Positions 38,498 to 43,715 of a stretch of 43,715 bases of DNA are shown one piece after another. Every line of letters begins with the position of its first letter. The first letter of the stretch is position 1. The translations under genes and the position numbers were made by a program. This DNA comes from Flavobacteriales bacterium (GTDB taxonomy: Bacteria > Bacteroidota > Bacteroidia > Flavobacteriales_F > PHOS-HE28): positions 1-43,715 of the forward strand of contig JAGQVN010000104.1 of NCBI GenBank assembly GCA_020437905.1, written 5' to 3'. The notes under the pieces were generated by a model. The model was given only the letters and a program-made list of their open reading frames with translations, made no database searches and was not told the DNA's origin.

Positions 38498-38531
38498 GAA
38501 GAACGGGACCCCGATCGGGGTCCCGTTCTTC
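38498..38531. terminator. Perfect 34-bp palindrome, likely bidirectional terminator
   Basis: GAAGAACGGGACCCC and GGGGTCCCGTTCTTC form a perfect 15-bp stem with GATC as loop, and the whole is palindromic. The arms end in GAAGAA/TTCTTC, giving a short T-rich end on both strands. It isolates the exported-protein operon that starts at 38660. Confidence 0.7.
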
Positions 38532-38659: not shown

Positions 38660-39607
38660 ATGGATCGACACGTAATGCGGCTGAACAACACCAAGAACAT
38701 CGTCCTGATAGGCTTTGCGGTATGGTGTGCCGGGTCGCTGGCCTCATGCAAGAAGGAGGTGGAGACCGTGCCTGATAACCAGGCACCGTACTATGACGGT
38801 GTGCCGACCGTGGTGGTGCGCAACTATGTGAACCGCCTTTTCATCGATCTGATCGGCAGGGAACCGCTCGACGCAGAAATGGACGCGGCCGTGGCCGATC
38901 TGGAAGCGAACGGCCTTTCCCGCAGTGCCCGCGAGGTACTGGTGGACCGGCTGATGACATCGACAGATTTCGTCGCCGGGGATTCATCGTACAAGCATGC
39001 CTACTACCAACGCCAGTACGACCTGTACAAGGCACGATGCCTGGAAGGGGTCTCCGACGATGTCATCGATCAGTTCATCGGCATCGCCGAGCAGAACGCA
39101 CTGGCCGATTCACTTGCGGGTAACACGGCAGGTTCACAACAGGCCAGTTCGGAAGCCGACCAGCTGCGCGATCTGAAAGCCGCGCGCATTGAGTACCGGG
39201 AGGGGCTCATCGGCATCAACGAGGTCTTCGCTCGTGTGGTGTACAACAACGTGTATGACGAGATCAATATGGGTTCCTTCAACTTCGTCAACGCCACCTT
39301 CGACAACCTGCTGTTCCGTTTCCCCACCACCGCCGAGTTCGATGCGGGATACGAGATGGTGGAATTCTCGCAAGCGGCCATTCTGTTCGGTCAGTCCGGA
39401 CAGAGCAAGAGCGACTACACCGATATCGTGGTATCCTCGGCCGAGTTCCACGAGGGGATGGTGCGTTGGTGCTACGTCACCTTCCTTGGTCGCCAACCCA
39501 GCACCTTCGAAGTGTATACGCTGCTTTCGCCGTTCATCAACGACAAGGACCTGCAACGGGTGCAACGTACCATTCTGACCTCCGATGAGTATGCGAATTT
39601 CCAATAG
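38660..39607 (+). CDS. Lipoprotein with two DUF1549-like units
   Basis: 315 residues. Lipoprotein signal with lipobox SLASC (Cys30). Two segments share one plan: N-terminal VNRLFIDLIGREPLDAEM (57-74) ending in LMTSTDF, and C-terminal YVTFLGRQPSTFEV (272-285) ending in LTSDEY. The plan '[FY]...GRxPxxxE ... LxSx[DE][YF]' is that of DUF1549 in Planctomycetes and, more loosely, DUF4214. The middle is helical with no motif. It heads a run of six exported proteins, the third being DUF1501-like, which is what DUF1549 genes usually accompany. Start could be the ATG at 38675. The role is unknown; probably a scaffold or binding lipoprotein of the complex. Confidence 0.7.
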   Translation: MDRHVMRLNNTKNIVLIGFAVWCAGSLASCKKEVETVPDNQAPYYDGVPTVVVRNYVNRLFIDLIGREPLDAEMDAAVADLEANGLSRSAREVLVDRLMTSTDFVAGDSSYKHAYYQRQYDLYKARCLEGVSDDVIDQFIGIAEQNALADSLAGNTAGSQQASSEADQLRDLKAARIEYREGLIGINEVFARVVYNNVYDEINMGSFNFVNATFDNLLFRFPTTAEFDAGYEMVEFSQAAILFGQSGQSKSDYTDIVVSSAEFHEGMVRWCYVTFLGRQPSTFEVYTLLSPFINDKDLQRVQRTILTSDEYANFQ

Positions 39608-40100
39608 CACGATCCGGACCGGAGCAACCGCATGCGCTGTTGTTCTTGCGATTTTGTTCCTGCTGCCATCGTGCAGGAAGGATCGCATCTACGAGGTGGA
39701 ACCGCTGCCTGTTCTTCCGCCCAGCCCGAACAAGGACAAGGAAAAGACCAACGAACAGTACGCCGCCATCCTGCATGCGAACCTGTTCCAGACCGCGTTG
39801 AGCGCGAATGAGCTGTTCGAGCTGGGACAATGCATCGAATCCATCGGTGACAAGGAACTGGCTAGGGAGGTGATCATCAGCAATTTCATGAACGAGCCGG
39901 ATGTGATCATCCCATCCGATTCGGTGATGCGCGCCGATATCGACGCCTTCGTCAACGCCACCTACGAGCGTTTTCTCGTGCGTGAGCCAACGGAAGCCGA
40001 ACGCACGTGGTTCCGGAACTACATCGAAGCTGACCCCAATGTGAGCGCGGAGCTGGTATACTTCTCGTTCGCCTTGTCCAATGAATACCTGTTCTACTGA
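39585..40100 (+). CDS. Small lipoprotein with one DUF1549-like unit
   Basis: 171 residues (169 if the ATG at 39591 is used). Both starts lie inside the end of the previous gene, so the two are coupled. Lipobox LLPSC (Cys30), a proline-rich linker (LPVLPPSPNKDK), and a helical body. The C-terminal segment FVNATYERFLVREPTEAE followed by FALSNEYLFY repeats the GRxPxxxE...LSxEY plan of the preceding protein, with VRE in place of GRE. It is probably a partner of the neighbouring lipoprotein. No other motif is visible. Confidence 0.7.
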   Translation: MSMRISNSTIRTGATACAVVLAILFLLPSCRKDRIYEVEPLPVLPPSPNKDKEKTNEQYAAILHANLFQTALSANELFELGQCIESIGDKELAREVIISNFMNEPDVIIPSDSVMRADIDAFVNATYERFLVREPTEAERTWFRNYIEADPNVSAELVYFSFALSNEYLFY

Positions 40101-40109
40101 AGCACGACC

Positions 40110-41447
40110 ATGGACAGAAGGAAATTCATCAAACGAGCAGGGGCAGTGGCGGGAGCCACCATTGCTGCACCTTACATCCTTCCAACGGGCAGGCTCTTCG
40201 CCGCGTCCGGTGGGGGCGGTCAGCTGGCCTCGCACGTGGTCTTCGTGCTGTTCGCCGGTGGCGTGCGCCAGCAGGAATCCGTGTTGCAACGCTACCTGGA
40301 TGACAGCCAGGGTGAGCCCTATGCCGGCAACATCATGTACAACATGTTGAACGGCGCACCACCCACCCAGAAGATCGTGTACGGCACCGGTCTGGGAGGC
40401 ATCAACCCGATCCCTGCGGTGCTTGGACAAACCTTGCAGCAGCAGGGCACGCTCTTTCCCGAGATGCGCGCGGTCTCCACCGGTCATTATGGTGGATTGA
40501 ATTCGCTGCTCCAAGGTGATACGGCCGCCACCCAGGGCCTGAACCAGAAACCCCTCGGCCCGACCATCTTCGAATACCTCCGCCGCCACGCAGGAACCCC
40601 GGCCAGCAAGGTGTGGTTCGTGGGCAATACGATCGGCAATTCGGTTCCCCTGTTGAACTACAGCGAGCATCCGGACTACGGTGTGACCTATGGGGCCAAT
40701 TTCTTTGCACCCAACATCACCTTCGGTCCCCTGGGTGACGAGTACCTGGCCAACGCCAAAGTGTACCACCCGCAGGACCAGCTGGCGCCCATGTACGAGA
40801 TGAAGTACTTCCTGGACAACAGCTTCGAGAACCAGGGTCGTGTGCTGCCTGCTCTGGGCAATACGGAAGAGGAGAAGCAGGACATCAAGGCCTTCATGAA
40901 GGAGATGTTCAATAAGACCCAGAACGGAACGATCGCCCATCCACCGGTGGCCGATAGCGGCGATCTGCGCACGGTGGGCTATGCCTGCGAGCTGCTCAAG
41001 TGGTTCAAGCCCACGCTCACCGTCGTGAACCTGAGCGCCGTTGATGGGTGCCACAGCAATTTCACGGGTTATCTCGCCTCCCTGCATCGCGCCGATCATG
41101 CGGTCGGTCACCTGTGGGACTTCATCCAGACCCAGGTCCCTGAAATGGCGGGGGATACCGTGATCATCGCTGCGCCGGAGTGCGGACGCAACGATGAGCC
41201 GAACGCCATCCGCGATGCCAACGACTGGTATGCGTATGACCACAGCGATCAGAACTCGCTCCGCGTGTTCGGCATGATGGCCGGGCCGACCGTACCCAGC
41301 AACCTCATCGTTGGCAGTGAGAACAACCCCGTGGGCCGGGTCACGGACATGGTCCTGACGATCGCAGAGGTATTGGGCATCAAGAGCGAAGTCATCAATG
41401 CGGGACAGATCTACCCGACATCCTCATCCTTGTTCGATCAGATGTGA
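40110..41447 (+). CDS. Tat-exported DUF1501-like protein (alkaline-phosphatase-superfamily fold likely)
   Basis: 445 residues. The twin-arginine signal RRKFIK (3-8) precedes AGAVAGATIAAPYIL. The body follows the DUF1501 plan: VVFVLFAGGVRQQ near 43, SVSTGHYGG-like STGHYGG (123-129), then the C-terminal set VDGCHSNF (311-318), ADHAVGHLWDFI, APECGRNDEPN (355-365) and DHSD (377-380). DUF1501 members show D-[TS]-H-S-N, EFGR and DH at the same places. They are exported, of unknown activity, and are mostly known from Planctomycetes beside DUF1549/DUF1553 genes. Metal-dependent hydrolase chemistry is inferred from the superfamily resemblance. Its stop lies 2 nt before the next ATG. Confidence 0.75.
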   Translation: MDRRKFIKRAGAVAGATIAAPYILPTGRLFAASGGGGQLASHVVFVLFAGGVRQQESVLQRYLDDSQGEPYAGNIMYNMLNGAPPTQKIVYGTGLGGINPIPAVLGQTLQQQGTLFPEMRAVSTGHYGGLNSLLQGDTAATQGLNQKPLGPTIFEYLRRHAGTPASKVWFVGNTIGNSVPLLNYSEHPDYGVTYGANFFAPNITFGPLGDEYLANAKVYHPQDQLAPMYEMKYFLDNSFENQGRVLPALGNTEEEKQDIKAFMKEMFNKTQNGTIAHPPVADSGDLRTVGYACELLKWFKPTLTVVNLSAVDGCHSNFTGYLASLHRADHAVGHLWDFIQTQVPEMAGDTVIIAAPECGRNDEPNAIRDANDWYAYDHSDQNSLRVFGMMAGPTVPSNLIVGSENNPVGRVTDMVLTIAEVLGIKSEVINAGQIYPTSSSLFDQM

Positions 41448-41449
41448 AC

Positions 41450-42382
41450 ATGCGCGGTTGCGTGATCATAGCAGCATTGCTGGTGGTGGCGTGCCAGAAG
41501 ACGGACGAGAACCCCTTCGACGGTCTGGACCGACCGGACCTGAACCCTCCCTTGGAGAGCTTGCCGACCGGGAACTTTGCATGGCTGCATCAGAAGATCT
41601 TCGAGCCCACCTGCGCGGAGAGCGGGTGTCACGACGGCACGTTCGAACCGGAGTTCCGCACGATCTCCAGTGCCTACAATTCCATCGTCCTGCACCCGGT
41701 CATTGCCAATGATCCGGGCGAAAGCTTCAGCTATCGTGTGGTGCCAGGTGATGTGAACGCTTCCTTCCTGCATGAGCGCATGACCGTGTTCGTTCCGGCG
41801 ACCTCGGGCATCATGCCCTTGGACGTGGCGCCGGGGTCGGATTGGCCCGCGAACAGCCAGAGCTACATCGCGGCCATTGAGCAGTGGATCGCCAACGGTG
41901 CGCCCGACATGTTCGGCCAGCTGCCCAGCGCCGGTGATCTGGAGCCTCAGGTGGTCGGTCTCCTGGCCTTCCCTGCCGGGAGCACCTCATCGCCCTATCC
42001 ACGCGGGACCGATCCCGGTGTACAGCCCATTGAAGTGCCATCGGGTCCGGTTGATGTCTGGTTCGCCTTCGACGATGCGAACACAGCGGCTTTGGACCTG
42101 CAGGTGAACCAGTTCAAACTGTCCACGGCCAGCATGGGCTTCGACACCATTCCGGCACAGAACCTTGCGGTGGGCAATGGCTTCGTGGGTCCGGACTTCG
42201 GTAATGCGAACGTGGGATTCACGCACCTCGCGGCCTTGGACCTGAGCGGATCGGATGTTGGCACATATTACTTCCTCCGCGTCTATGTGAACGATGGTGA
42301 TCATACGGAGGACACCGAGATCCCGAACGACGGGACCGGGCCGCCCATGCGGGATTACTTCACCCTGAAGGTCGTGCCATGA
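41450..42382 (+). CDS. Lipoprotein with CxxxxCH heme-c-like site
   Basis: 310 residues from the ATG at 41450; a GTG at 41444 overlapping the previous stop is the alternative. Lipobox LLVVAC (Cys15). The segment IFEPTCAESGCHDG puts Cys55, Cys60 and His61 in a CX4CH pattern, as in some multiheme cytochromes. Downstream RVVPGDVNASFLHERM and SGIMPLDV resemble the PGxxxxS.L..R...MP part of planctomycete-type cytochromes. The C-terminal half (about 190-310) looks like an Ig/beta-sandwich domain. If heme is bound, the protein is a surface or periplasmic electron carrier. It overlaps the next gene by 4 bases. Confidence 0.7.
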   Translation: MRGCVIIAALLVVACQKTDENPFDGLDRPDLNPPLESLPTGNFAWLHQKIFEPTCAESGCHDGTFEPEFRTISSAYNSIVLHPVIANDPGESFSYRVVPGDVNASFLHERMTVFVPATSGIMPLDVAPGSDWPANSQSYIAAIEQWIANGAPDMFGQLPSAGDLEPQVVGLLAFPAGSTSSPYPRGTDPGVQPIEVPSGPVDVWFAFDDANTAALDLQVNQFKLSTASMGFDTIPAQNLAVGNGFVGPDFGNANVGFTHLAALDLSGSDVGTYYFLRVYVNDGDHTEDTEIPNDGTGPPMRDYFTLKVVP

Positions 42383-42816
42383 ACAAGTGGATCCTCGCGT
42401 TCACGGTCGTAGTGCTGACCTCCTGTAAGAAGGATGAGGTGCTTCCTTCCGTGCCGGAGATCGAGCTGATCTCCGTGTCGCCGACCGTGGTGCAATCCTT
42501 TGGCGAGCCGGTGATCCTGCGGTTCAAGTACCAGGATGGGGATGGCGACCTCGGCGAGCCCGACCCGGACAGTTATTCGCTGGAAGTGAAGGACAGCCGC
42601 CTGAACGCCGCCGACGGCTACCATGTGCCACCCTTGGCACCGCTGGATAGCGAAGTGGCCATCGAAGGAGAGCTCGAAGTGGAATTGACCCCCTTGTTCC
42701 TACTTGGCAATGGGGCCCAGGAGACCGTGACGTATTCCATCCGATTGCGGGACCGGGCCGGAAATTGGAGCAATACGCTCGTGTCCCCCGCGGTGATGGT
42801 GGTGGACAGTCTGTAG
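42379..42816 (+). CDS. Small Ig-like lipoprotein
   Basis: 145 residues overlapping the preceding gene by 4 bases (ATGA). Lipobox VVLTSC (Cys16). A single beta-sandwich-like domain (about 25-145) with the acidic loop YQDGDGDLGEPDPDSY, which may bind calcium, and a last strand VTYSIRLRDRAGNWSN. It resembles the small Ig-like lipoproteins of Bacteroidota operons. It is likely an accessory surface part of the same system, which is inference from position. Confidence 0.7.
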   Translation: MNKWILAFTVVVLTSCKKDEVLPSVPEIELISVSPTVVQSFGEPVILRFKYQDGDGDLGEPDPDSYSLEVKDSRLNAADGYHVPPLAPLDSEVAIEGELEVELTPLFLLGNGAQETVTYSIRLRDRAGNWSNTLVSPAVMVVDSL

Positions 42817-42828
42817 CACCGGTGCGTG

Positions 42829-43715
42829 ATGAACGCCAGGAACATCATAGGATCCGCAGCCATCGCGCTGATCGGGCAGACAGGGGCGCAACCCCTGCCC
42901 GAGTTCAACATGATGGATACGGTGGTCACCGAGTGCAAAGGCATCCTGCTGGACAGTGAGGCCGGCCCCGGCGGCAACATCTATGGCAACAATGAGGACT
43001 TCGTCTTCACCATCGATGCAGGCAATACCATCACGCTCGTGTTCGATCCCGTTTTCTGCACGGAGTTCGGCCTTGACCTGCTCACCTTCCATGACGGGCC
43101 TTCCACGGCGTCCCCACAGATAGGTCCGGCTTATTCGGGGATCGTAGCCCCGCCACCCATCGTGGCCACCAGCGGTTTCCTCACCGTGCATTTCGTGTCG
43201 GATCAGAGCGTGGCCTATTGTGGCTTCGAGGCCCAATGGACCTCCGAAGTGGAGCCGCCGGTACCGCCAACGCTATCCGTTCCCCAGGCGCCTTTATGCC
43301 AGGCCACAAGCATCAGCGTCTCCTTCTCCGATCCGATCCCCTGCGACTCCATCGTGGCGGATGCATTCACGCTGACCGGGACAGGTATGCCGGACATCGT
43401 GGGGGCCCAAGCGACGAACTGCGTGGGTGACGAGACCACCACCGGTGTGTTGTTGGTCGATCCGCCATTCGACTACAACTGCCCCTATGACCTGGACTTC
43501 ACCATCGGCATTGCTGACCGGTGCGACAGCATCTGGATGTTCACCATCGCTACCACCACGCTGGTCAATGACTGTCCGCTGGTGGTGAACGCATTGGTCA
43601 CCGAGGACACGATCTGCGGCGGGACCTGCGTGCAGCTGCGGGCTGAAGTACAAGGCTGCCTGAACTACACCTACTCATGGGACCAGGGTCTACCCGCGAC
43701 GTCGGGCCCGCATAC
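42829..43715 (+). CDS. CUB-domain surface protein, 3' end cut by window
   Basis: 295 codons are open from the ATG at 42829 to the window edge. A signal peptide (about 1-20, ending TGAQ) precedes a CUB-like domain at about 32-142: ECKGILLDSEAGPGGNIYGNN, VFDPVFCTEFGLDLLTFHDG, VHFVSDQSVAYCGFEAQW. Cysteine-rich beta repeats follow. Such CUB-plus-repeat proteins of Bacteroidota are usually very large adhesin-like T9SS cargo ending in a gliding-motility C-terminal domain, which would lie beyond the window. It starts 12 nt after the Ig-like lipoprotein gene, so it is probably the sixth gene of the operon. Confidence 0.78.
   Translation, partial: MNARNIIGSAAIALIGQTGAQPLPEFNMMDTVVTECKGILLDSEAGPGGNIYGNNEDFVFTIDAGNTITLVFDPVFCTEFGLDLLTFHDGPSTASPQIGPAYSGIVAPPPIVATSGFLTVHFVSDQSVAYCGFEAQWTSEVEPPVPPTLSVPQAPLCQATSISVSFSDPIPCDSIVADAFTLTGTGMPDIVGAQATNCVGDETTTGVLLVDPPFDYNCPYDLDFTIGIADRCDSIWMFTIATTTLVNDCPLVVNALVTEDTICGGTCVQLRAEVQGCLNYTYSWDQGLPATSGPH

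Follow-up and report, generated by a model that had tools for sequence, protein, structure and literature searches.

The six genes at the end of the window, by which we mean the whole 43,715-nucleotide stretch of Flavobacteriales DNA analyzed here, encode exported proteins in close succession, and the locus raises the question of what kind of envelope assembly they form. A sequence-only reading had regarded it as a miniature planctomycete module split into small proteins, with DUF1549, DUF1553, DUF1501 and PSCyt1 parts, and possibly as an electron-transfer or hydrolase assembly of the envelope. Below, we examine each gene, its conservation across Bacteroidota and the roles that the set might undertake.

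Organization of the locus

The reading-frame list and direct reading of the window identified six open reading frames for exported proteins, here called A to F, which form one operon on the forward strand (38660-43715) with intergenic gaps, from A to F, of -23, +9, +2, -4 and +12 nt. The end of the window is the end of the contig (position 43715), and gene F is therefore truncated. The five complete frames, the cut one and the spacings given by the sequence-only reading are thus all present, as are its four lipoboxes, one Tat signal and one signal peptide with a CUB domain: the N-termini of A, B, D and E show a hydrophobic stretch up to the lipobox Cys, and C starts with the Tat sequence MDRRKFIK. 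The features are as follows.

38498..38531, no strand: perfect 34-nt palindrome GAAGAACGGGACCCCGATCGGGGTCCCGTTCTTC, read directly; likely hairpin between the operon and the upstream genes
38660..39607, + strand: gene A, lipoprotein of 315 aa with helical repeats like those of DUF4214 and phycobilisome linkers; residues 53-105 give a weak, partial match to DUF1549
39585..40100, + strand: gene B, lipoprotein of 171 aa, DUF4214-like
40110..41447, + strand: gene C, 445 aa, Tat-exported, divergent DUF1501 of the alkaline-phosphatase superfamily, with His126 at the nucleophile position
40485..40487, + strand: His126 codon of gene C, invariant; position of the Ser/Thr nucleophile in active-type relatives
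41043..41054, + strand: D312-G-C-H315 codons of gene C, first metal site, retained
41178..41183, + strand: E357-C358 codons of gene C, Asp-His in active-type relatives; position 358 is His in 17/90 members
41450..42382, + strand: gene D, lipoprotein with a putative PSCyt1-like single-heme cytochrome c domain and a C-terminal beta-sandwich
41612..41632, + strand: putative heme-attachment motif of gene D, C-A-E-S-G-C-H (CX4CH), in 72/72 homologues
41813-41815, + strand: candidate axial Met of gene D, in the MP that follows CX4CH in homologues
42379..42816, + strand: gene E, lipoprotein of 145 aa, probably Ig-like, with conserved Y-x-D-x-[DN]-G-D-[LV]-G and no Pfam match
42829..43715, + strand: gene F, 5' part, with ATG at 42829 and an in-frame GTG at 42826; signal peptide and CUB domain

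The upstream palindrome had also been called a terminator; it exists, and its absence from the terminator scan listing is explained by a tail poor in T, which leaves that role plausible but short of demonstrated.

Conservation of the gene order across Bacteroidota

With each GTDB species represented by one genome, a scan yielded 331 encoded relatives of C, of which the best 80 were analyzed, all of them from Bacteroidota MAGs. Among these best 80 of 331, the complete A-B-C-D-E-F series lies on one strand in 69 loci, while the remainder comprises 8 partial loci, mostly at contig ends, and 3 with C alone. A protein search in 39 related genomes detected C in 14, among which 5 are further members of the window genome's own genus, and the neighborhoods of the matches displayed the same gene order in all 5 of these and in 3 other families; the 80-locus and 39-genome counts share some genomes and are not independent. 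The median gaps over the loci are -5.5, 10, 3, -4 and 2 nt, and the pairwise protein distances of all six genes are correlated (r=0.74-0.83, 55 complete loci). The recurrence of this arrangement is far beyond chance, and the neighborhood survey that the sequence-only reading had proposed found strict co-location in related genomes. PorP/SprF, described below, is the single consistent extra neighbor among the 80 loci, where no glycan-degradation gene recurs consistently, and no plasmid copies of C were matched. In 395 genomes sampled evenly across the phylum, the full-length C family is rare, which indicates that the operon is confined to particular, largely uncultured lineages.

Six further loci (L029-L034) harbor a paralogous A-B-C-D-E set without an adjacent F, and in three cases the genome has the full operon as well; at L030, A is cut by the contig end. 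The existence of this version implies that F is not always required. The C proteins of the paralogous operon exhibit PEHGR in place of PECGR.

Within the genus of the window genome, the block of the carriers, PorP/SprF included, is found exactly between a winged-helix gene on its upstream side and the IspG-side genes on the other, always at this one site. In the non-carriers of the genus these flanks are adjoining or near (1246 and 1311 in L223, 1430 and 1737 in L218, 1296 and 1912 in L222), and in L219 and L220 unrelated genes stand between them. Because the flanks mostly abut in non-carriers, the block behaves as a unit, and the seven genes (A-F and PorP/SprF) appear to be kept or lost together in many uncultured Bacteroidota. 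Recent mobility within the genus was considered and rejected, given the common site in all carriers and their scattered placement on the flanking-gene tree; ancestral presence with repeated loss fits this small tree better than repeated insertion. Where C stands alone and detached (L085, L112 and L113), A was found elsewhere in the genome in 3/3 cases and D in 2/3, the D match of the third genome being weak and partial. The all-or-none occurrence of the block, and the retention of A and D alongside a detached C, are independent signs that these proteins work together.

Gene C: a DUF1501-like protein with replaced catalytic residues

The window copies of C, D and E received no useful Pfam or NCBIfam name. 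For C there was no Pfam match, and DUF1501 (PF07394) stayed below its gathering cut-off, the best member reaching E=0.0032; family members match Phosphodiest (1.8e-5), Sulfatase and DUF1501 in Pfam. When profiles were compared, C against 21 canonical DUF1501 proteins gave E=4e-8 with probability 95, spanning the metal core, and C shares with them the core motifs (D-x-H type, ExGR and DH), the His at the nucleophile position and the Tat signal. The predicted structure (pLDDT 72, pTM 0.80) matched PDB sulfatases and alkaline phosphatase in Foldseek with E=2e-9 and probability 1.0, at a TM of only ~0.4. On these profile and fold comparisons, C is a divergent DUF1501 protein with an alkaline-phosphatase fold, as the sequence-only reading had anticipated.

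The active site was inspected in a residue alignment of 90 C proteins, 21 canonical DUF1501 proteins and 27 superfamily relatives. The catalytic position is occupied by Ser/Thr in 27/27 relatives and by His in 90/90 C and 21/21 DUF1501 proteins. One metal Asp of the second site is replaced by Gly in 90/90 C and 21/21 DUF1501 proteins, and the Asp-His of the relatives gives way to Glu-Cys (73) or Glu-His (17) in the 90 C proteins and to Glu-Phe in 21/21 DUF1501 proteins. The first metal site (D312, H315 and H378) is retained in C, and these three residues are conserved, along with E357 and H126, in 90/90 C proteins. The His columns of this first site are gap-shifted between the groups in the alignment, so that their correspondence is a motif reading. 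The replacements common to both groups support their kinship, and the exchange of the nucleophile for His and of the metal Asp for Gly makes ordinary hydrolysis unlikely in C and DUF1501 alike. Compared with an active hydrolase of the alkaline-phosphatase superfamily, C thus presents the fold, with neither the nucleophile nor the two-metal site, and the idea of a hydrolase assembly in the sequence-only reading loses ground. Extrapolating from the Bacteroidota DUF1501 proteins, the His/Gly replacement may hold for the whole family, planctomycetes included.

C, which Tat exports in the folded state, carries neither a lipobox nor a T9SS signal that would account for a position at the surface, and may act in the periplasm instead. 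Its residues 19-32 (window 40164-40205), APYILPSGRLFA after the Tat motif, are almost invariant, which is unusual for a discarded signal peptide. The nearest recognizable relatives outside DUF1501 are active-type superfamily proteins, mostly of 300-400 aa, with a Ser/Thr nucleophile and DHGR (L161-L187).

Gene D: a candidate PSCyt1-like cytochrome

Although no Pfam cytochrome match was obtained for D, hhalign against the N-terminal cytochrome domain of ten canonical PSCyt1-DUF1549-DUF1553 proteins from Bacteroidota produced E=1.3e-8, which upholds the PSCyt1 part of the sequence-only reading. All 72 of 72 D homologues bear the motif followed by MP, with the spacing CX4CH and not CxxCH, and D fits the heme/Met-Pro/WI-GA pattern of PSCyt1. 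The model is confident (pLDDT 92) and shows a beta-sandwich alongside a small domain of helices; the structure search returned generic beta-sandwich matches to the C-terminal domain only and no cytochrome. From the motif and the profile match, we infer that D is a PSCyt1-like single-heme lipoprotein that would bind heme through CX4CH. The genome encodes cytochrome c assembly, SprA and TatC genes.

Genes A, B and E: the remaining lipoproteins

In the A family, 13/14 members match DUF4214 at E<=1 (best 3e-7), with a PBS linker match of 3e-7 and PDB linkers at 1.4e-7; in the B family, 11/14 members match DUF4214 (best 3e-5). The DUF4214/linker matches of the window copies of A and B lie below the Pfam cut-off. 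By these family-level profiles, A and B are DUF4214/phycobilisome-linker-like lipoproteins. E, which matched no profile, is probably an Ig-like lipoprotein, judged by eye from its sequence. The two domains that the sequence-only reading had expected here did not hold up. A resembles DUF1549 over 48 of 209 positions, with 23.9 bits against a cut-off of 29.8 (hhalign E=0.003, probability 10), a weak likeness that is real yet short and sub-cut-off, and none of 73 A proteins contains a heme motif. DUF1549/PSCyt2 was rejected as the identity of A on this partial match and the lack of CxxCH, with DUF4214 and the phycobilisome linkers fitting better. DUF1553/PSD1 was rejected as well, with a best value of 0.023 in 3/14 A proteins and none for B, which is DUF4214-like.

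A lipoprotein export signal of the form C-X-K-(D/E)2 has been described in Capnocytophaga (PMC5080379). The lipobox Cys of the operon lipoproteins is mostly followed by Lys and then by acidic residues, in resemblance to this signal. Since other flavobacteria use different lipoprotein export signals, surface exposure of the lipoproteins is only suggested.

Gene F and the PorP/SprF gene

The CUB domain of the window copy of F scores above the Pfam cut-off (2e-6). Full-length F homologues of ~1160 aa combine CUB with a T9SS type-B sorting domain, matching TIGR04131 at 3e-12, 1e-10 and 8e-13, all above cut-off, and the window copy ends before this domain. No heme motif occurs in 57 F proteins. The seventh gene, after F, is PorP/SprF (TIGR03519 match of 4e-50 in L021), which was observed in carriers of the genus and in ~20 of the best 80 (of 331) loci; in the window genome it falls beyond the contig end, so that neither this gene nor the sorting domain of F was visible to the sequence-only reading. 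PorP-like proteins have been found experimentally to bind type-B substrates at the surface (PMC9143113). At L071, L107 and others, genes that adjoin the operon upstream of A encode more secreted proteins of large size, which either resemble F or have many GCTDxxAxNYDPxAxxDDGSC repeats.

A proposed envelope complex and its alternatives

Taken as anatomy, the locus very probably encodes an envelope module that unites a cytochrome resembling PSCyt1, a metal protein resembling DUF1501, lipoproteins of linker-like type and a surface protein of the T9SS along with the anchor for it. As to mechanism, we tentatively favor a surface metallo-redox complex that would act on a surface-bound polymer. A-F and PorP/SprF would constitute one envelope complex in which A and B serve as linker-like scaffolds that bring C and D into one assembly at the outer membrane. 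C would offer a remodelled metal site (Asp312, His315 and His378 with His126 and Glu357) devoid of the phosphatase/sulfatase nucleophile, and the heme of D would exchange electrons, in either direction, with this metal center. F would capture a polymer or glycan at the surface, and the complex would oxidize or reduce the captured substrate.

The alkaline-phosphatase fold of C, the Phosphodiest and Sulfatase matches of some of its members and the frequent vicinity of sulfatases to PSCyt genes in Verrucomicrobia (PMC5615132) would all suit an active hydrolase of sulfatase/phosphodiesterase type, with the operon clearing a glycan captured at the surface of its sulfate or phosphate esters and D as an accessory. 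We regard this as improbable, considering that 90/90 C proteins have His where 27/27 relatives have the Ser/Thr nucleophile, with Gly in place of the second-site Asp and Glu-Cys/His in place of Asp-His. The same replaced catalytic residues, with the linker-like A and B and the CUB domain of F, would agree with a non-catalytic surface scaffold or adhesin in which C is a ligand-binding pseudoenzyme and the D motif is structural; the invariance of D312, H315, E357, H378 and H126 (90/90) and of the heme motif with MP (72/72) points instead to a chemical site that is kept, and makes a mere scaffold unlikely.

In another arrangement, A-E would be a periplasmic maturation or anchoring complex for F and similar type-B T9SS substrates, for instance by modifying F before export. 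F and PorP/SprF share the operon and are missing together with A-E, and the signal of C places it only in the periplasm, both as such a complex would predict; six loci possess A-E without an adjacent F, and many type-B substrates are exported without A-E-like genes, and we consider this role rather doubtful. An extracellular electron-transfer conduit would agree with the presence of an outer-envelope cytochrome-like protein and an outer-membrane barrel in one operon. It appears very improbable here: the only heme motif is the single one in D, with none in the 73 A or 57 F proteins, and PorP/SprF is a T9SS anchor and not a porin-cytochrome component. The surface metallo-redox complex, tentative as it is, could have a wider counterpart, in which the DUF1501 fold, here and in planctomycetes, is that of an alkaline-phosphatase-type metalloprotein that has exchanged hydrolysis for redox chemistry, with a metal-ligand His where the nucleophile was and a PSCyt1-type cytochrome as the electron partner; a new kind of polymer-acting surface oxidoreductase of this breadth is a speculative and, on balance, unlikely extension.

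Relation to known systems

The split-miniature idea of the sequence-only reading holds for two parts, since C is DUF1501-like, D is PSCyt1-like and their genes are co-located, and fails for DUF1549 and DUF1553. As in planctomycetes, where PSCyt1-DUF1549-DUF1553 has a DUF1501 neighbor, a PSCyt1-like heme domain and a DUF1501-like Tat protein are encoded side by side. The operon differs from the planctomycete system in its small split lipoproteins, in CX4CH instead of CxxCH, in the lack of DUF1553 and of a second heme, and in its link with PorP/SprF and a type-B protein of the T9SS. With the SprB-SprF and PG1035-PorP pairs of the T9SS it has in common the type-B sorting domain of F and the PorP/SprF gene that follows, whereas these pairs have no counterpart of the five upstream genes of the heme/metal module. 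With sulfatases and phosphodiesterases of the alkaline-phosphatase superfamily, C shares the fold and the first metal site, but the nucleophile and the second metal site are replaced in all C members.

DUF1501 is also paired with DUF1800 in other bacteria (PMC5122149), and nothing is known of the function of PSCyt genes (PMC5615132); neither of these papers gives a function for DUF1501, DUF1549 or DUF1800 proteins. Such a DUF1800 and DUF1501 pair likewise consists of a Tat-exported DUF1501 protein with the same His/Gly/Glu replacements beside a second protein of unknown function, but it has no cytochrome, linker-like lipoproteins or type-B protein, and shows EFGR where C has PECGR/PEHGR. The window's own genome contains, independently of the operon, a canonical DUF1501 gene (profile match) adjoining a DUF1800-like gene, so named from resemblance and gene order, on contig C280 (L116 4628-7870). 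This DUF1501 protein has a C-terminal extension resembling a T9SS sorting tail.

PSCyt and DUF1501 proteins are abundant in Planctomycetes and Verrucomicrobia, and to our knowledge no function has been assigned to them. In the operon, this system comes down to a handful of small proteins, each with its own gene, which opens it to expression, purification and pairing one by one. The residue analysis provides a direct, testable reason against an ordinary sulfatase or phosphatase identity, and the link to T9SS anchoring puts a PSCyt1/DUF1501-type module at the cell envelope.
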